NCBI GenBank assembly: GCA_903822185.1
Contig: CAIJOA010000039.1
Location: 124,001-188,000, forward strand
Source of the DNA: an uncultured Rhodospirillales bacterium
GTDB taxonomy: Bacteria; Pseudomonadota; Alphaproteobacteria; ATCC43930; CGMCC-115725
Direction of reading: 5' to 3'
DNA length: 64,000 nt
The notes beneath the pieces are model-generated. The model searched no databases. It was not told where the DNA came from and worked only from the letters and a program-made list of their open reading frames with translations. The stretch's first letter is position 1, and each line of letters starts with the position of its first letter. Position numbers and translations under genes: made by a program. Positions 306 to 9,277 of this stretch are shown one piece after another.

Positions 306-1247
306 TTACTTGTACTGAGGCAGAATTCGCAGTGCGTTGTCACGGTTGAGCAGTTTCATATCGTCAGCGGAGAAAGCGCCGCATTCCTCGAGCGCCTTGC
401 CGATGATCGCCGGGTCGCCCCACGGTACGTCGGTGCCGAAGACGATCTGCGACATCGGCACCGCTTCGCGCAATGCCTTCATCGGACCCGCGTCATAAGC
501 CGCCGCGGTGTCGTAGAAGAAGCGCGCGATTTCGGGCCGGAGGCCATTCGGCAAGAACTTCGCAAATTGCGGCATGTTGGCGAGGCGATTGAAACGGTTA
601 TAGAGGAAAGGCATCTGACCGCCGCCATGCGACCAGATGATCCGCACATCCGGGAAACGCGACGCGCGGCCGGTCAACAGAATTTGCGCCAGCGCACGGG
701 TCGTGTCGGTGTTGTATTCGATCAGCGAATCCGGGATGCCCGGGATCATGTTGGTGCAGCAGGTCGCCGTCGTCGGATGGGTATAGATCACCGCCTTGCG
801 GCGATTGAGTTCTTCCATCACCGGATCGAAGGACGCATCACCGAACCATTTATCGCCATAGCTGGTGAAAAACACGACGCCGTCGGCCTTCAGCACGTCC
901 ATGCCGTATTCGATTTCCTTGAGGCTGGCATCGATATCGGGCATCGGCAGATTGACGAACATGCCGAAACGGCCGGGAAAATCCGTCGTCAGCTTCGCCG
1001 CATAATCGTTGCACATGCGCGTCAGCTTTTTCGTAAAAGTGAGGTCGCCAAACCACAGGCCGGGCGTGGTGATCGAGGTGATCGATGCTTGCACCCCGCC
1101 CTTGTCCATCAGCTCGATCGAATGTTCCGGCGTCCAGGCGCGGGTTTCGCGCGTAATCGCGACGCCTTTGGGATCGAGTTCGGTGATGTAAGCCGGCGGC
1201 GTCAGGTGATGATGGACGTCGATCCGGCGGGGCGAAGCATTGGCCAT
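306..1247 (-). CDS. Amidohydrolase, ACMSD-like (amidohydrolase_2 family)
   Basis: A 313-residue TIM-barrel metal-dependent hydrolase or decarboxylase. Visible metal residues match the ACMSD pattern: DVHHH (His12, His14), YTHP (His157), SHGGG (His207, the position of the catalytic histidine) and FGTD (Asp273). Members of this family decarboxylate or hydrolyse aromatic-acid ring-cleavage products and related compounds without oxygen. An unusual CCTN motif follows the third metal ligand at residues 163-166 and is shared with the paralogue at 21313-22257. The ATG at 1247 was chosen over upstream in-frame starts because GGGAGGAA precedes it and the family starts a few residues before DxHxH. Substrate is unknown. 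A divergent ABC operon starts about 240 bases away. Confidence 0.85.
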   Translation of the reverse strand: MANASPRRIDVHHHLTPPAYITELDPKGVAITRETRAWTPEHSIELMDKGGVQASITSITTPGLWFGDLTFTKKLTRMCNDYAAKLTTDFPGRFGMFVNLPMPDIDASLKEIEYGMDVLKADGVVFFTSYGDKWFGDASFDPVMEELNRRKAVIYTHPTTATCCTNMIPGIPDSLIEYNTDTTRALAQILLTGRASRFPDVRIIWSHGGGQMPFLYNRFNRLANMPQFAKFLPNGLRPEIARFFYDTAAAYDAGPMKALREAVPMSQIVFGTDVPWGDPAIIGKALEECGAFSADDMKLLNRDNALRILPQYK

Positions 1248-1485: not shown

Positions 1486-2328
1486 ATGACGCCGACATCG
1501 GACGCGGGAAGCCGCGCCAATGCGCTGGACTTGCGCGGCATCACTTGCACCTTTCCGCCGAGCGGCAAAGGCGAAAAACCCTATACCGCCGTGCGCGACG
1601 TCAATCTCACCCTGGCCGACGGCGAATTCGTTGCCATCGTCGGCCCGACCGGCTGCGGCAAGTCCACACTGCTCAATGTTGCGGCAGGTCTCCTTCCGGC
1701 CAACACCGGCGATGTGCGCATCTTCGGCCAGCCGCTAATTGGTATCAACGATCGTGCCGGTTATATGTTTCAGGCCGAGTGCCTGCTGCCGTGGCTAACC
1801 GCCCGCCGCAACGTGGCCTTCGGGTTGGAGTTGCGCGGCGTGGATACGGCCGAGGCGACCCGGCGCGCCGATGCCTGGCTCGCCCGCGTCGGACTCAGCG
1901 GTTTCGAGGACCGTTATCCGAAGCAGCTTTCCGGCGGCATGAAGAAGCGCGTCGCCCTCGCCCAGGTTCTGGTCATGGAGCCGAAAATTCTCCTGATGGA
2001 TGAGCCTTTCAGCGCGCTCGACATCCAGACGCGGCAATTGATGGAAAATGAATTGCTGGATATGTGGTCGGCCGACAAGAAATCGGTCTTCTTCGTCACC
2101 CACGATCTGGAAGAGGCGATCTCGTTGGCCGACCGCGTCGTCGTCATGTCGTCCGGCCCGGCAACGACGCCGGTCGCCGAATTCAATGTCGATATTCCGC
2201 GACCGCGCGACGTCACCGAAATCGTCCAGTCGCCGCAATATCTCGATCTTCACCGCCGCATCTGGGAAATCCTCAAGAAGGAAGTCCTGAAAAGTTACGA
2301 GCGCGGCAAGACGGTGGCCGCATCATGA
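1486..2328 (+). CDS. ABC transporter ATP-binding protein, NitT/TauT type
   Basis: A 280-residue importer ATPase of the nitrate/taurine/sulfonate class. Visible motifs: Walker A GPTGCGKST (about 53-61), signature LSGGMKKR, Walker B ILLMDEPFSALD and the H-loop FVTHDLEEA. The ATG at 1486 is preferred over in-frame starts at 1399 and 1432 because GTGGGGAGG lies 11 bases upstream. Its last codons overlap the permease start (ATGA), which indicates translational coupling. With the next two genes it forms a short operon. The Q-loop region reads YMFQAECLLPW, normal for the family. The substrate cannot be read from the ATPase. Confidence 0.93.
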   Translation: MTPTSDAGSRANALDLRGITCTFPPSGKGEKPYTAVRDVNLTLADGEFVAIVGPTGCGKSTLLNVAAGLLPANTGDVRIFGQPLIGINDRAGYMFQAECLLPWLTARRNVAFGLELRGVDTAEATRRADAWLARVGLSGFEDRYPKQLSGGMKKRVALAQVLVMEPKILLMDEPFSALDIQTRQLMENELLDMWSADKKSVFFVTHDLEEAISLADRVVVMSSGPATTPVAEFNVDIPRPRDVTEIVQSPQYLDLHRRIWEILKKEVLKSYERGKTVAAS

Positions 2329-3092
2329 ACAACGCAAAACGCCATTCGATCATCTGGGGCGCGCGTCTCGCCATCATCGTCGCACTGCTGATCGCCTGGC
2401 AGATCAGCATCGAACATTCGCGCATTGCCGCCTTCTTCCTCGGCTCACCGAAGAAGATCGGCGAAACGCTGGTCGAATGGTTCACCACGGGCAGCATCTA
2501 CAAACATCTCGGCATCACGCTGATGGAAACGATGCTGTCGTTCCTGATCGGCACCGGATTCGCCCTTATTCTAGGCCTGTGGCTCGCGCTCAACGATATG
2601 TGCGCGGCGATCTTCGATCCCTTCATCAAGGGGCTCAATTCGATGCCGCGCCTGATCATGGCGCCGATCTTCGCCGTCTGGTTCGGGCTCGGCATCTGGT
2701 CGAAAGTCGCGCTGGGCGTGACACTCGTCTTCTTCGTCGTGTTCTTCAACGTGTTCCAGGGCATCCGCGAGGTCAGCCCGGTGCTGATCGCCAACGCCAA
2801 GATGCTCGGCGCCAGCCGGCAGCAGCTCGTCCGCCGCGTCTATATTCCCTCGGCCTTGAGCTGGGTGTTTTCGAGCCTCCATCTCTCCGTCGGGCTCGCC
2901 TTCGTCGGCGCGGTGATCGGCGAATATCTCGGCTCGTCCGCCGGCGTCGGCTATCTCATCCTTGAGGCCGAAGGCACGTTCGATATCGAGACCGTGCTGG
3001 CCGGCGTCATCTTGCTCACAACCTGTGCCCTGATCCTCGATTTCGCGATCACCCTGTTCGAGAACTCGCTGCTGAAATGGCAGGGGAAATAA
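2325..3092 (+). CDS. ABC transporter permease, NitT/TauT (SsuC/TauC) type
   Basis: A 255-residue inner-membrane permease with about six hydrophobic segments. The cytoplasmic coupling motif of binding-protein-dependent permeases (EAA loop) is present as KMLGASRQQLVRRVYIP, followed by the conserved GLAFVGAVIGEYLGSSAGVG segment typical of SsuC/TauC. The start overlaps the ATPase stop (ATGA at 2325). It pairs with the upstream ATPase. The next gene starts 2 bases after this stop. Together these look like a complete importer except for the odd identity of the downstream binding protein. Confidence 0.92.
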   Translation: MNNAKRHSIIWGARLAIIVALLIAWQISIEHSRIAAFFLGSPKKIGETLVEWFTTGSIYKHLGITLMETMLSFLIGTGFALILGLWLALNDMCAAIFDPFIKGLNSMPRLIMAPIFAVWFGLGIWSKVALGVTLVFFVVFFNVFQGIREVSPVLIANAKMLGASRQQLVRRVYIPSALSWVFSSLHLSVGLAFVGAVIGEYLGSSAGVGYLILEAEGTFDIETVLAGVILLTTCALILDFAITLFENSLLKWQGK

Positions 3093-3094
3093 CG

Positions 3095-4042
3095 ATGGGC
3101 GCACAGGCGGAACTTAACTTCGCGTTCCACGCGCCCGTCACCTCGGCGACCAACCAGGGGGGTCTCAAACCTTTTGTCGAAGCGGTGACGAAAGAAGTCG
3201 GCAGCGACATCGCCATCAAGGTTCATACCGACGAGGGTTTGGGCGGGCTGCTGACCAATCAGGTCGAACTGGTCGAGAACGGCACGGCCGATGCGGCGTT
3301 CGTCATCCCTGGCTTCACCCCCGCGCGGTTTCCGGACAACTTCGTTTTCGGCATTCCCGGCATCTTCAACGACATCGTCGAGGCCAGCCTGACCTTCAGC
3401 CGCGTCGTCAACGCCGGGGTTCTACGCGGTTACGAGAATTTCTTCGTCATCGGCGCTTTCTGCACCGAGCCCTTTACGCTCCATTCGCGGACCAAGCTGA
3501 CCACCCTCGCCGATCTGAAAGGTCTTAAGCTGCGTGCAGCGAACGGCGCCGATGAGATCATGCTGAAACAACTGGGCGCCGATGCACGCGTGGTCCCGGG
3601 CGACAAGGTACTTGAATCGATCGAGAACGGCACCATCGACGGAACGACGATGCATGCGGGGCCGCTGGTCGATCTGGGCGTCGATCGCGTCACCCATTAC
3701 GACTATTACCTGCGGCTGGGCTGCGCGCCGTTGACGGTACTGATGAACAAGGATCGTTTCGCGGCACTGTCGCCGACGGTACAGGCCGCGTTTCGCAAAT
3801 ATAGCGGTGACTGGTTCGCGCGCCGTTATGCTGAGTTCAACGCCGCGCATAACGAAAGTTTGCTCGCCGAGATGCGCGCCTATCCGAAGCGGACGATCAC
3901 CCATCCGCCGCAACAGGAAATCGATGAAGCAGCGAAAGCTTTCCAACCGATCATCGACGACTGGCTAACCAAAGACCCACGCAATGCGCGGACACTGGAT
4001 GCGGTGAAGAACGAAGTCGGACGGTTACGCGCAGGCGGTTGA
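3095..4042 (+). CDS. DctP-type (TRAP) solute-binding protein without signal peptide
   Basis: A 315-residue protein resembling the DctP/TRAP-T binding family. Recognisable stretches are ENGTADAAFVIPGFTPARFP (a DxxFxxPGxxPGxFP-like motif), LADLKGLKLRAANGADE and LESIENGTIDGTT (the family's GxVDG segment), and the late helix LSPTVQAAFRKYSGDW. The ATG at 3095 has AGGGGA 7 bases upstream. An in-frame ATG at 3077 adds only MAGEIT. Neither start yields a hydrophobic export signal, and the frame upstream lies inside the permease. It is the third gene of an ABC ATPase/permease operon, where a TauA/SsuA-type protein would be expected. It may act in the cytoplasm, or be a ligand-binding protein whose export differs from the usual. 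No TRAP membrane subunits are nearby. Confidence 0.8.
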   Translation: MGAQAELNFAFHAPVTSATNQGGLKPFVEAVTKEVGSDIAIKVHTDEGLGGLLTNQVELVENGTADAAFVIPGFTPARFPDNFVFGIPGIFNDIVEASLTFSRVVNAGVLRGYENFFVIGAFCTEPFTLHSRTKLTTLADLKGLKLRAANGADEIMLKQLGADARVVPGDKVLESIENGTIDGTTMHAGPLVDLGVDRVTHYDYYLRLGCAPLTVLMNKDRFAALSPTVQAAFRKYSGDWFARRYAEFNAAHNESLLAEMRAYPKRTITHPPQQEIDEAAKAFQPIIDDWLTKDPRNARTLDAVKNEVGRLRAGG

Positions 4043-4063
4043 CGCGGCGTATTGCAGTAACAC

Positions 4064-4162
4064 CACGAGCCCTTCGACCGGCTCAGGGTGAGGAATTTAT
4101 CTTAATGGCATCCAACGCAGCGCACCCTTTCGCCTCACCCTGAGCCCGTCGAAGGGCTCGTG
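4064..4162. repeat. Intergenic inverted repeat (REP-like)
   Basis: Two 30-base arms, 4064-4093 and 4133-4162, are inverted copies with one mismatch; they contain CCTTCGACCGGCTCAGGG and its complement. They are separated by 39 bases and lie between the convergent DctP-like gene and tctA. This sequence type occurs as dispersed intergenic palindromes in many proteobacteria. It can form a long stem-loop in both transcripts and may act as a bidirectional terminator, though no T-run follows. Confidence 0.8.
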
Positions 4163-4190
4163 ATGGTCGCGCGCGAAACTAAACGCGGCT

Positions 4191-5699
4191 TTAGTCCACG
4201 CCTTCGGTGACACCGTGCGTCGCCTTGCGGCGAAGCGCCGGGGCGCAGAAGACGACGACAAGGCCGATCGTCGCCAACAGAATCGCCGCGCTGATCGGGC
4301 GGGTCACAAACACGGTCGCATCGCCGCGCGAGATCAATAGAGCTCGGCGGAAATTATCTTCGAGCATCGGTTCGAGGATAAGGCCGAGGATCAACGGCGC
4401 CGGCGAACATTCCAATTTCACGAACAGATAGCCGACGACGCAGACGCCCGCGGCGAACAACACGTCGAAGGACGAGTTGTTGACGCTATAAACGCCGATG
4501 CAGCAGCAGACCAACACCAGCGGATAGAGAAAACGATACGGCACGGCGAGCAGCCGGATCCAGATGCCGACCAACGGCAGGTTAAGAATCAGCAGCATCG
4601 CATTGCCGATGAACATGCTGGCGATGACACCCCAGAACAGGTCCGGATGCTGAGCCATTAATTGCGGGCCGGCCGTCACGCCCTGGATCATCAGCGCCGC
4701 CAGCATCAAGGCCATGGGTGCGCCGGCGGGGATGCCGAGCGTCAGCATCGGGATGAAATGAGTAAAGGTCGCGGCGTTGTTCGAGGCTTCGGGGCCGGCG
4801 ACGCCTTCGATCGCACCTTTGCCGAAACGCGACGGGTCTTTCGCGAGACGACGCTCCATGCTGTACGAGGCGAAAGACGCAATCAGCGGGCCTGTGCCCG
4901 GAAAGACACCAATCGCGGAGCCCAGCGCGGTGCCGCGCCAGATCGGTCCCCATGACGCTTTGAGATCGGCTTTGGTCGGTATGAGGCCCGTCACCTTGTC
5001 GATGACGACGCGGGTCGTGTTGCCGGTGAGGTTCGAGGTGATCTGCGCCAGGGCGAACAGACCGACCGCGACGGCGACGAAATTCAGACCGTCATCCAAC
5101 TGGTGAACGCCGAGGGTGAAACGCATCAACCCGGTCGAAACGTCGGTGCCGATGGTGCCGAGCAGCAGCCCCAGCACCGCCATCGAGATCGTGGTGACGG
5201 CGGACTCGCTGGTGATGACGGCGACCGCGACCAGCGCGAGGACGATCATCGACGCATATTCGACCGGGCCGAAACTGCGTGCGACGATGGCAAGCGGCGG
5301 CGAGAACAAGGCGATGATGCCGACGCTGACCACACCGGCAAAGAACGACCCCAGCGCCGAGATACAAAGGGCGGGACCTGCCCTGCCTTGCCGCGCCATC
5401 GGATGACCGTCGATACAGATCACCACCGATGTCGGCTCACCCGGCATGTTCATCATGATCGCCGTGGTCGAGCCGGCGTGATGCGCGCCGTAATAGATGC
5501 CGGTCAGCATGATCAGCGACGCAACCGCGGGCATCTTGAAGGTAATCGGTAGCAGCATCGCAATGGTCGTCACCGGCGACAGACCCGGCAGCACGCCGAC
5601 CAGCGTGCCCAGCGCCGCACCGATCAGGCAATACATCAGGTTTTCCGGCGTCAGCGCGACGCCGAAACCGCCGGCCAGGCTGTAAAAGGTTTCGAGCAT
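4191..5699 (-). CDS. tctA: Tripartite tricarboxylate transporter permease TctA
   Basis: The large membrane subunit of a TctABC secondary carrier, 502 residues, the usual length. Family features include the N-terminal GTLVGVLPGLSPVTTIAMLL segment, the GIYYGAHHAGSTTAIMMNMP motif around residues 67-86, and about 12 hydrophobic helices. It is the last gene of an eight-gene minus-strand operon and follows tctB by 6 bases. With TctC (8306-9277) it should bring an organic acid into the cytoplasm using the ion gradient. The co-transcribed Rieske oxygenase and cupins suggest an aromatic or other unusual carboxylate rather than citrate. Confidence 0.93.
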   Translation of the reverse strand: MLETFYSLAGGFGVALTPENLMYCLIGAALGTLVGVLPGLSPVTTIAMLLPITFKMPAVASLIMLTGIYYGAHHAGSTTAIMMNMPGEPTSVVICIDGHPMARQGRAGPALCISALGSFFAGVVSVGIIALFSPPLAIVARSFGPVEYASMIVLALVAVAVITSESAVTTISMAVLGLLLGTIGTDVSTGLMRFTLGVHQLDDGLNFVAVAVGLFALAQITSNLTGNTTRVVIDKVTGLIPTKADLKASWGPIWRGTALGSAIGVFPGTGPLIASFASYSMERRLAKDPSRFGKGAIEGVAGPEASNNAATFTHFIPMLTLGIPAGAPMALMLAALMIQGVTAGPQLMAQHPDLFWGVIASMFIGNAMLLILNLPLVGIWIRLLAVPYRFLYPLVLVCCCIGVYSVNNSSFDVLFAAGVCVVGYLFVKLECSPAPLILGLILEPMLEDNFRRALLISRGDATVFVTRPISAAILLATIGLVVVFCAPALRRKATHGVTEGVD

Positions 5700-5705
5700 G
5701 CGGCG

Positions 5706-6182
5706 TCAGTCCGGAAACAAAGAGAAAGGAAGATTGAGACCATAGACGAATAGCCCTGCGCCAAAGGCCGCCAGCACCACGCACATGATCGCGATTTCGA
5801 TCAGATTAAGTTTGGGGTTGGCGAGGCAGGCGATCACCGTCGTGCCGATGATCGTGAAAACAAGTCCAAGAGGACGGACCGCAACGCCGAAGAAAATGAC
5901 ACTGAGCGGAATAAGATAGATGGCACGCGGCCGCCAACTGCCGAGGCCAGTCTCGTAGGCGCTAAGCGTGCCGATAACGATGTTGGCGATACCGAGGCCC
6001 GTCAGGATGATGCTGAGCAGCAACGGAAAGCCGCCCGGCCCGACCCGCGTCGGCGTGCCGAGATTGTAACCCAGCGACATGAGGATGCCGGTGATGCCGA
6101 AGCCGGCGAAGATCACGCCGGTGATGATCTTCTTGATCTCGCCACGGCGAACGCGGACGAAGGGATTGCCGTCCACGCTCAT
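5706..6182 (-). CDS. tctB: Tripartite tricarboxylate transporter small subunit TctB
   Basis: A 158-residue protein with four hydrophobic helices, matching TctB in size and topology. The segment ITGILMSLGYNLGTPTRVGP corresponds to the family's first helix and GxxxxMGPGxFP-type loop (here RVGPGGFPLLL). The start overlaps the M24 gene stop by 4 bases and tctA follows 6 bases later. TctB assists TctA in the membrane; sequence conservation in this family is weak, so the call rests on size, topology and position. Confidence 0.88.
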   Translation of the reverse strand: MSVDGNPFVRVRRGEIKKIITGVIFAGFGITGILMSLGYNLGTPTRVGPGGFPLLLSIILTGLGIANIVIGTLSAYETGLGSWRPRAIYLIPLSVIFFGVAVRPLGLVFTIIGTTVIACLANPKLNLIEIAIMCVVLAAFGAGLFVYGLNLPFSLFPD

Positions 6183-7375
6183 GCCAGTTCGAACAGTTTT
6201 TGCGCCGTCTGATGAATGCGCACAGGTCCGTTCGGACCGATGATGAAGTTGTTCGTGTTGCTCATGAAGTTCTTACCAACGAGCATCGCCGCGTGGAGGC
6301 CCATGTTCATGTTCTCGCGGATGGTCATCGATTCGTCCTGCCGGATCAGCGGACGCTCGACCATCTCGTAACCTTGACCGTGACAAAGAATGCGGCGTTC
6401 CTCGGGAAGGCCGTGATTGCGCATGAATTCGTTATGCGCGGCAAAGACATCGGCGCAGGCCGCACCCGGCTTCATCCGGTCCAGCACATTCTGTTCGGCT
6501 TCGAGAACCAACGCATGCGCTTCTGTGATCTCCTGCGGCGCCTTGCCCATCACCATGAAACGGAACAGATGGGTATAGAAGCCGCTGGGACCATTGCATT
6601 CGATCATGATGCCGACGACGTCGTTCTTTTCGATCGTGCGCGTCATCGCATATTTGGGTTTGACGAAATTGGGCTGACCCAGCGGTGTCGCCATGATCAT
6701 ATAAAGCCCCTGCGAGCCGCCGCGCAGCGTCGTCAGATACTGCATATAAGCGGCGACTTCGTATTCCTTCATGCCGGGCTTGATGTAATCCAGCAGGATG
6801 GTCATCACCTCGTCCTGGATCGCGGCGGCCTTGCGGATGAGGCCGATCTCTTCGGCGCTCTTCACCGCTTTGATGTCGTCGATCGCGTCGGTCGCATCGA
6901 CCCATTCGACCTCGGGTAGCGATTCTTTCAGCGCCTGAACGAAGCCGTGATACATGCCATTAGCGCCGACCAGTCCGACACGACGATGACCACCGGCTTT
7001 CAATTCCTTTGCCATCAGCTCGCCGTCATAGCGGCCGGTGTAATCGACTGCGCCGTTGAAGCTGGGCGTCGAGACGCGGCGGCCGATGCCGCGGAAGTCG
7101 GCGTGATCGCCGTTATAACCCCACTCACCACCAAAGACGCCGACTTCGCATGTCGTCATCAACCCATCGAGCGGGAAGATCACCGAGCGCGGATAGGCAT
7201 TGGTCGCCGGCGTGTCGGTGAACCATTTGGTGTAAGCGCCCATCCAGTCTTCGGAGCTTTGCAGTACCAAGGCATCGACGCCCAGCTTGCGCATCGCGGC
7301 GCGCGACGCGGACCAGCGCCGTTCCAGTTCCGTGTTCGAGATCACGTCGCGGATGGGGGAAGCGGTAGCGGTCAT
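6179..7375 (-). CDS. M24 (pita-bread fold) peptidase-like protein, creatinase-like
   Basis: A 398-residue protein with a creatinase/prolidase N-domain (about 1-170) and a pita-bread catalytic domain. The five metal ligands of M24 metallopeptidases (D, D, H, E, E) appear as Glu259 (MIECNG), His269 (FYTHLFR), His332 (CHGQGYEM), Glu340 (VERP) and Asn near 375. Three ligands are thus replaced while the central His and following Glu remain, as in metal-independent creatinase. A C-N hydrolase or lyase role fits better than proline peptidase. An ATG at 7375 with AGGAGA upstream is preferred over the adjacent TTG. It lies between the cupins and tctB in the Rieske/Tct operon. Substrate unknown. Confidence 0.85.
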   Translation of the reverse strand: MTATASPIRDVISNTELERRWSASRAAMRKLGVDALVLQSSEDWMGAYTKWFTDTPATNAYPRSVIFPLDGLMTTCEVGVFGGEWGYNGDHADFRGIGRRVSTPSFNGAVDYTGRYDGELMAKELKAGGHRRVGLVGANGMYHGFVQALKESLPEVEWVDATDAIDDIKAVKSAEEIGLIRKAAAIQDEVMTILLDYIKPGMKEYEVAAYMQYLTTLRGGSQGLYMIMATPLGQPNFVKPKYAMTRTIEKNDVVGIMIECNGPSGFYTHLFRFMVMGKAPQEITEAHALVLEAEQNVLDRMKPGAACADVFAAHNEFMRNHGLPEERRILCHGQGYEMVERPLIRQDESMTIRENMNMGLHAAMLVGKNFMSNTNNFIIGPNGPVRIHQTAQKLFELA

Positions 7376-7385
7376 CAAATCTCTC

Positions 7386-7838
7386 CTATCGCTTCGTCGT
7401 CGCGTCGATCACGACCGTGGCGAACCGGCACGGCTTATCGCCACGATTGGCCCAGCCATGGACGGTCGCGCGCTGCACCATCGTGTCGCGCGGCTTCATC
7501 GTCACCGCTTTGCCGTCTTCGAGCGTCATGGTCAGCTCGCCCTGCAGCACGACGATGTAATCGATGGTCTGGGTCTTATGCATATGCGGCTGGGTGCCGG
7601 GCTGCAGTTCCAGAACCCGGAACACGGCACCGGCATTCGACGGCAGCACCGGAAAATCCTTCGCCGTCGGATCATCGCCGTTGAGATTGGGCGGCAGGGT
7701 TTCGTGCAACCATAGATTCGCGATGCTGATTTCCGACTGCATCTTACCCGGCTGGGATTCGATCACGCTGTCAGAGCCGATCATGGAACGGCCCTGGGCG
7801 TCATGCCTGGTGACGATGCGGCGCGTGGTGAAGGTCAT
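7386..7838 (-). CDS. Cupin-domain protein, copy A
   Basis: A 150-residue single-domain cupin. The first cupin motif reads PHMHKTQTIDY (HxH, then Asp in place of the usual Glu) and the second reads VQRATVHGWANR (third His, then Asn), so a complete metal-binding set is plausible. It begins MTFTTRRIVTRHDAQG and closely parallels the next gene upstream, also 150 residues, starting MSFQTRRIVTGHDAAG. The two overlap by 4 bases (ATGA). The role could be a dioxygenase, isomerase or ligand-binding cupin in the pathway fed by the Rieske oxygenase. Family resemblance alone does not give the reaction. Confidence 0.85.
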   Translation of the reverse strand: MTFTTRRIVTRHDAQGRSMIGSDSVIESQPGKMQSEISIANLWLHETLPPNLNGDDPTAKDFPVLPSNAGAVFRVLELQPGTQPHMHKTQTIDYIVVLQGELTMTLEDGKAVTMKPRDTMVQRATVHGWANRGDKPCRFATVVIDATTKR

Positions 7839-8287
7839 GACGGGGTTCCGATCGCGTCGAACAACACTTCGGCAAAGACGGCGGGCTTGCCGCTGCGATT
7901 GTCCCAGCCGTGATTGGTCGAACGCTGCACGATCACATCGCCGGTCCGGCACAACACCTCCCCGACATCCATCGTCATATAAAGCTCGCCTTCGAGAATG
8001 ACGTAGTAATCGATGGTGGGGGTCTTATGCTTGGTCGTGTCGTTGTCGGGCGGGATTTCGAGGATGCGGAAGATCGAGCCGAACGGCTTGGGTGTCGTGA
8101 TGCTGGGCTGCTTGGTCGGGTCCGCACCATCGAGCGCGGGCGGCATCGAATCCGTCATCCAGGGATCGTAACGCGCCACCCGGTCGTCGAACCGGCCGGG
8201 AACTGAGGGAACAACCTCGTCGCTGGTGATGGTCGATTTGCCGGCTGCGTCGTGGCCGGTCACGATCCGTCTGGTTTGGAATGACAT
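7835..8287 (-). CDS. Cupin-domain protein, copy B (tandem paralogue)
   Basis: A 150-residue cupin, paralogous along its full length to the following gene at 7386-7838. Its first motif reads TTKHKTPTIDY, so the first histidine of HxH is replaced by threonine, whereas the second motif VQRSTNHGWDNR keeps its histidine. The metal site is therefore probably altered or lost relative to copy A. It lies 18 bases after tctC. The two copies may form a heteromer, or one may have taken on a different role. The ATG at 8287 is the natural start given the shared MxFxTRRIVT opening. Confidence 0.84.
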   Translation of the reverse strand: MSFQTRRIVTGHDAAGKSTITSDEVVPSVPGRFDDRVARYDPWMTDSMPPALDGADPTKQPSITTPKPFGSIFRILEIPPDNDTTKHKTPTIDYYVILEGELYMTMDVGEVLCRTGDVIVQRSTNHGWDNRSGKPAVFAEVLFDAIGTPS

Positions 8288-8305
8288 GACCGGCCTACCC
8301 GCCTC

Positions 8306-9277
8306 TTACTGCGCTTCGTATTTGAGCTTGGTGAAGATGTTGCCCCAGTTATCGCGTTCCTGCTGCTCGAACGTGGCGATCGATTCCGGCGTACCGGCGC
8401 CACCGCGGATCGTCGTGCCATAGGACAGCAGCCGCTTGATGTAATCCGGGTCTTTGACCACCGGGTCGATCGCGCGATTTAGCTTTTCGATGATGTCTTT
8501 CGGCGTACCGGTCGGTGCGAAGACGATGGTGAAGCCTTGGACGCGATAGCCGGGCAAGACTTCGCCGATGGCCTGCACATCGTCATGGCCCGGAACGCGC
8601 TGTGGCGAGGTTTCGCCGATGGCGCGCAGTGAGCCGTTATCGAGATACGGCTGCACGGCGTCGAAGGTGGTGAAGACCAGCGGGATGCGGCCGGCAACCG
8701 TGTCCTGCATCATCGAGCCGTAATCCTTGTAGGGGATCGGCTCCATCTTGGTGCCGGCGAGATAATCGAACCAGGGGCCGATCAGGCTGGTGACGCCGAT
8801 CTGGCTATAGCCATAGCTGAGCTTGCCGGGTTCCTTTTTGGCCAGCGCGACGAGTTCGGTAACGTTCTTCGCTTCGACGTTGGGATTGGCGGCGAGGACG
8901 AAGGCGTTCGAATCCGACAGCATCGCCACCGGCACGAAATCCTTTTCCGGATCGTAGGGCAGCGACTTGAACATCCATTTGTCCGTCGCCACGACCGACA
9001 GACCTCCCAGATAGAAGGTGTAACCGTCGGGCGCCGCGTGGGCCGCGCGGCCTGCCGCGATCAAACCGCCGCCGCCGGCGACGTTATCGACGATCACCTG
9101 CTGCTTCAGCGATTGCGACAGCTTGTCGGCGACGATGCGCGCGACGAGATCGGGCTGCGCGCCTGCCGGAACGCCGATGATGAAACGGACCGGCTTGGTC
9201 GGCCAATTGGTGTCGGCCTGCGCCGCGAACGGCGCGAGTAGCGTCAGTCCGACGAGCAAAGACAGAAAGCGACGCAT
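8306..9277 (-). CDS. tctC: TctC/Bug-family periplasmic solute-binding protein
   Basis: A 323-residue Bug-type binding protein with a clear Sec signal peptide (MRRFLSLLVGLTLLAPFAAQA). Family hallmarks are WPTKPVRFIIGVPAGAQPDL, VIVDNVAGGGG, and the C-terminal DIIEKLNRAI segment. It would capture a carboxylate in the periplasm and hand it to TctA/TctB, whose genes end the same operon. It sits directly downstream of the Rieske beta subunit (47-base gap), linking uptake to ring hydroxylation. Confidence 0.93.
   Translation of the reverse strand: MRRFLSLLVGLTLLAPFAAQADTNWPTKPVRFIIGVPAGAQPDLVARIVADKLSQSLKQQVIVDNVAGGGGLIAAGRAAHAAPDGYTFYLGGLSVVATDKWMFKSLPYDPEKDFVPVAMLSDSNAFVLAANPNVEAKNVTELVALAKKEPGKLSYGYSQIGVTSLIGPWFDYLAGTKMEPIPYKDYGSMMQDTVAGRIPLVFTTFDAVQPYLDNGSLRAIGETSPQRVPGHDDVQAIGEVLPGYRVQGFTIVFAPTGTPKDIIEKLNRAIDPVVKDPDYIKRLLSYGTTIRGGAGTPESIATFEQQERDNWGNIFTKLKYEAQ

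Follow-up and report, generated by a model that had tools for sequence, protein, structure and literature searches.

The window analysed here, a stretch of 64,000 nucleotides (G000:C39:124001-188000) from a 4.27-Mb alphaproteobacterial genome in 50 contigs, carries a tight operon in which the ATPase and permease genes of a predicted NitT/TauT-type ABC importer are followed by a gene for a DctP solute-binding protein (SBP) without a signal peptide. We posit, with our confidence about evenly divided, that the importer is fed in trans by NMT1-type proteins and that the leaderless DctP protein binds a carboxylate in the cytoplasm as an intracellular partner. In a bolder version, which we put forward tentatively, this TRAP-class binding protein has switched both transporter class and membrane side and acts as a cytoplasmic, ligand-responsive partner of the ABC importer. 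Binding proteins set the membrane side and the engine of an importer. If our reading is true, a binding-protein fold can pass from one class of transporter to another and be relocated to the cytoplasm, and the operon offers a simple test of whether such a fold is able to govern an ABC importer from the inside.

The operon and its neighbourhood

Table 1. Features of the ABC-DctP locus (positions in the window; L009 is the corresponding locus in the second genome of the genus)
Feature	Position	Strand	Evidence
Amidohydro_2 metal-dependent hydrolase/decarboxylase, divergent neighbour	306..1247	-	PF04909 E 9.5e-31; 68% identical in L009
ABC transporter ATPase, TauB/SsuB/NrtD type	1486..2328	+	PF00005 E 1.3e-33; 81-83% identical to L009
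ABC transporter permease, TauC/SsuC type	2325..3092	+	PF00528 E 5.3e-27; 81% identical to L009
DctP (family 7) solute-binding protein without signal peptide	3095..4042	+	PF03480 E 1.7e-26
33-nt inverted repeat between the convergent DctP and TctA genes	4061-4165 (arms 4061-4093 and 4133-4165)	.	arms 94% complementary
TctA large membrane subunit, tripartite tricarboxylate-type transporter, convergent neighbour	4191..5699	-	PF01970 E 1.8e-147; 87% identical in L009

The ATPase gene runs from an ATG at 1486 to a stop codon at 2326-2328, which is overlapped (ATGA) by the permease ATG at 2325. The permease stop lies at 3090-3092 and is followed after 2 bases by the DctP ATG at 3095, an in-frame alternative ATG being present at 3077; the DctP product has 315 residues. 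The coordinates, the 2-base gap and the three-gene order given in a preliminary description of this DNA are thereby confirmed. The inverted repeat behind the DctP gene is possibly a REP-like element or a bidirectional terminator.

Pfam, NCBIfam, relatives and trees agree on the presence of both a TauB-like ATPase and a TauC-like permease, and the two are predicted to form an importer of the NitT/TauT class to which they had been assigned before (PF00005, PF00528 and the nearest NCBIfam models). These nearest models are of the taurine, nitrate and aliphatic-sulfonate type, and all matches fall below the curated cut-offs of the named subfamilies, so that no substrate is assigned. Permeases 50-67% identical to that of the window occur in 20 other alphaproteobacterial genomes. 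Together with three more distant loci this gave 23 related ABC loci, and an NMT1/TauA-type SBP gene adjoins the ABC genes in every one of them (L053, L077 and L078 included), the order ATPase-permease-SBP being common to many. No NMT1/TauA-type SBP gene is present in the operon of the window or in that of its counterpart in the same genus. Neither genome of the genus encodes another close member of the permease's subfamily; the next best permeases are 33-38% identical.

That counterpart (locus L009 in genome G012, uncultured Rhodospirillales bacterium Umea3_bin-2224) displays the same ATPase-permease-DctP order, which had been proposed as something to look for in other genomes, with identities of 83, 81 and 75% to the window. 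The divergent amidohydrolase and the convergent TctA gene are likewise kept. Its DctP gene starts a few bases past the permease stop, and its reading frame is offset from that of the permease differently than in the window. According to a Nei-Gojobori comparison of the two operons, dN/dS is 0.16 for the ATPase, 0.23 for the permease and 0.17 for DctP, the last to be read with caution given a dS of 1.16, near saturation; purifying selection thus acts on the DctP gene as it does on the ATPase and permease genes. The leaderless arrangement is represented by two species, at least one of them by a metagenome-assembled genome; no further case was found among the genomes sampled from the order, class or phylum. 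An assembly error in one genome is excluded by the agreement of the two species.

The wider neighbourhood comprises the Amidohydro_2 gene, the tripartite tricarboxylate-type transporter, an M24 protein, cupins, a Rieske oxygenase, an MFS transporter and acyl-CoA enzymes. Such a gene content suggests that an aromatic or similar carboxylate is taken up and degraded. A complete TctA/TctB/TctC transporter is encoded on the minus strand at 4191-9277, interleaved with the M24 protein and the cupins and adjoining the amidohydrolase and the Rieske oxygenase, so that parallel uptake routes lie within one catabolic cluster.

The DctP protein and its missing leader

The DctP protein is a full-length member of its family. 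PF03480 covers it from profile position 10 to 282 of 286, the NCBIfam model TRAP_S1 is matched with 56 bits (cut-off 50 bits), and a phmmer comparison with solved TRAP DctP structures gave a best E of 3e-20, the best relatives being 7nsw, 7nrr and 5iga. Structure prediction from the two sequences of the genus was too poor for use (mean pLDDT 49.8), and the assignment of the fold therefore rests on homology; viral contigs searched for relatives that could deepen the alignment contained none. Identity between the two DctP proteins is 87% over residues 63-218, 53% over residues 1-62 and 69% over residues 219-315. Arg147, which we take to correspond to SiaP Arg147, the conserved carboxylate-binding arginine of the family, lies within the best-conserved part; it is kept in both proteins and is invariant in A2. 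No regulator domain is fused to DctP, and neither DctQ nor DctM adjoins it, its neighbours being the ABC genes and TctA. The genome holds only two DctM genes, both on another contig than the operon.

No hydrophobic leader can be read from any in-frame start of the DctP gene. The alternative ATG at 3077 adds only MAGEIT, and the region upstream, back to the previous in-frame stop (from 2966), is polar, charged and rich in arginine (GRRHVRYRDRAGRRHLAHNLCPDPRFRDHPVRELAAEMAGEIT). In the protein of the window the N-terminus coincides with the first strand of the mature fold (MGAQAELNFAFHAP), and that of the second genome likewise starts with the mature fold (MEAATRLIFAFHAP), whereas exported relatives carry roughly 20-40 additional N-terminal leader residues. 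Neither a leader nor a Tat motif was found in the DctP of either species. The preliminary description had seen no export signal from either start, and had named as possible objections a frameshift or sequencing error and normal leaders in homologues at the same position; its reading is upheld by the polar upstream frame and by the equally leaderless homologue of the second genome, and no frameshift was detected. Since the frame of DctP relative to the permease differs between the two genomes, a conserved frameshift or fusion cannot hide a leader. A signal peptide concealed by a frameshift or an upstream start is thus excluded, as is a translational fusion with the permease, from which DctP is also separated by a stop codon.

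Among 51 DctP proteins compared, a leader was recognisable in 48 and one was cut by a contig end, leaving only the two proteins discussed here without one. General loss of leaders in the genus is excluded, because the two genomes encode 36 further complete DctP proteins and every one of these has a leader, as do the NMT1 arrays as far as they were read. With 12 DctP genes to two DctM genes in G000 and 27 to three in G012, DctP is in great excess over TRAP permeases, and most of the exported orphan DctP proteins of these genomes lack the conserved ligand arginine.

Origin of DctP and the orphan NMT1-type proteins

In the tree, the window's DctP lies apart from the remaining members of the family encoded in the same genome and groups with exported DctP proteins of other genera at 31-38% identity. 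Two of these (L016, L069) are encoded in TRAP or TRAP-like operons and a third (L073) on a short contig that carries no permease, and the slightly more distant L070, L071 and L072 are again found in TRAP operons. As the kin of the protein are exported proteins of other genera, its joining of the ABC genes and the loss of its leader both map to the branch leading to this genus, to which the combination is peculiar among the genomes sampled. Gene order and trees support the earlier idea that a binding protein of the TRAP class was recruited into a NitT/TauT-type ABC operon. Our literature search, in a limited collection that leaves absence unproven, returned no report of a leaderless DctP or of a DctP-ABC operon. 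Outside the genus, the highest identity (38%) is that of an exported DctP encoded 6 bases before a GGDEF-EAL gene (L180:7477-10479), an arrangement suggesting that this binding protein feeds a cyclic-di-GMP sensor.

A profile of the NMT1 SBPs from related ABC operons gave two strong matches in G000 (C30:27844-28803 and C6:23947-24945) and three in G012. These orphan proteins carry leaders and nest inside the clade of ABC-adjacent SBPs (tree of 25 rows, 97/94, with L060 and L076 outside). No TauB or TauC gene was present near them in the stretches read, one of the SBP genes lying 0.9 kb from a contig end. Judging from the tree, the SBP lineage of the window's ABC subfamily survives in the genus as orphan genes for predicted exported proteins. 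An operon without an SBP and SBPs without an importer plausibly fit each other; the orphans are not exact sisters of the SBPs from the closest ABC operons, and supply in trans is for this reason a proposal.

NMT1-type genes are abundant in both genomes, with about 100 matches each. Tandem arrays of about 17 and 9 such genes are located on contig C48 of G000 (about 85.2-103.2 kb and 110-121.5 kb; L171, L172), nearly all with visible signal peptides and with a single TauB-TauC-TauC set among them, and a comparable array exists in G012:C7 (L178). A single ABC system may here draw on dozens of exported binding proteins. With so many NMT1 genes, the occurrence of other DctP genes beside them is at about chance level, and no clustering is claimed.

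A proposed cytoplasmic partner, its alternatives and known systems

We propose the following course of events. DctP would descend from an exported TRAP-type binding protein whose leader was lost in the ancestor of the genus, and would stay in the cytoplasm, as its missing leader indicates. The substrate of the importer would probably be delivered from the periplasm by the exported orphan NMT1-type proteins. Made in step with the importer, DctP would bind the ligand that has been taken up or an intracellular metabolite, presumably keeping its two-domain binding fold and holding the carboxylate by the retained Arg147. It might then modulate the importer, as a sensor or a brake, or hold the substrate and hand it on. 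Periplasmic supply in trans and the lack of a visible exit for DctP together make a cytoplasmic ligand-binding partner the simplest reading. The preliminary description had left the choice between atypical export and a cytoplasmic sensor or carrier; the predicted cytoplasmic location is the better supported of the two, because all other complete DctP proteins of these genomes keep their leaders and exported SBPs of the cognate lineage survive. There is precedent for ABC importers being controlled from the cytoplasm, by domains that sense a ligand or by PII proteins (PMC10710835). Cytosolic proteins with an SBP signature and other functions are recognised as well, single-domain cases among them, and about 1% of automatically retrieved SBP-family proteins are predicted to be cytosolic (PMC9602780).

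It is less probable, though worth considering, that the DctP fold now works in the cytoplasm as an enzyme, or as a substrate chaperone, for the imported carboxylate within the adjoining catabolic cluster. MqnA and THI5 are SBP-fold proteins that work inside the cell. The catabolic neighbours (Amidohydro_2, M24, cupins, Rieske oxygenase and acyl-CoA enzymes) would suit such a role, as would the cytosolic single-domain SBP-signature proteins with alternative functions (PMC9602780). The leaderless pair moreover shares two cysteines, C123 and C210, both in the well-conserved middle of the protein, and 42 of the 51 DctP proteins have no cysteine at all. These residues hint at a reducing compartment and so speak for our main reading as well, but the argument is weak because an exported TRAP relative (L069) already has C123, which counts against an enzyme or chaperone too. 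DctP is furthermore encoded with the importer and not with the catabolic genes, and we know of no enzyme in PF03480.

Somewhat less likely still is that DctP serves as the importer's own periplasmic binding protein and crosses the membrane along a route that is unrecognised or needs no leader, such as piggy-back on an exported partner. Its gene occupies the place of the SBP gene in many ATPase-permease-SBP relatives, the ligand arginine is retained, and TRAP-class SBPs may pair with other classes of transporter, as proposed for TAXI-GltS (PMC12344293). Such export is opposed by the lack of a leader or Tat motif in two species, by the normal leader on every other complete DctP of the two genomes and by the availability in trans of exported SBPs from the lineage serving this ABC subfamily. 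We know of no case in which a DctP protein docks on a TauC-type permease. That the gene is a functionless relic of a TRAP-type binding-protein gene is very improbable and largely ruled out, since the absent leader and the distance to the relatives outside the genus, at 36-38% identity, are outweighed by 75% identity between the two species, intact reading frames in two species, a start close behind the permease in both genomes and a dN/dS of 0.17, the near-saturated dS advising caution.

Compared with the DctP-type TRAP SBPs of DctPQM systems (PF03480), the cytoplasmic partner that we propose has the full-length domain, the fold by homology and the ligand arginine in common with them, and differs in its missing signal peptide, the missing adjacent DctQ and DctM and its site in an ABC operon. 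The ATPase and permease belong to the same type as the NitT/TauT importers TauABC, SsuABC and NrtABCD, from which the operon differs in that a leaderless DctP stands in place of the NMT1/TauA-type binding protein. In the TAXI-GltS system proposed for Bordetella (PMC12344293), the gene of a TRAP-class SBP likewise lies beside that of a transporter from a different class, with which its translation is probably coupled; there the SBP is exported and works with a secondary transporter, whereas here a DctP without leader is joined to an ABC importer. The trans-inhibited importers MetNI and ModBC and the PII control of NrtABCD (PMC10710835) provide a precedent for sensing and regulation of ABC importers from the cytoplasmic side, the task falling in those systems to PII proteins, or to regulatory domains that are fused to the ATPase and have a different fold, rather than to a partner with the SBP fold.
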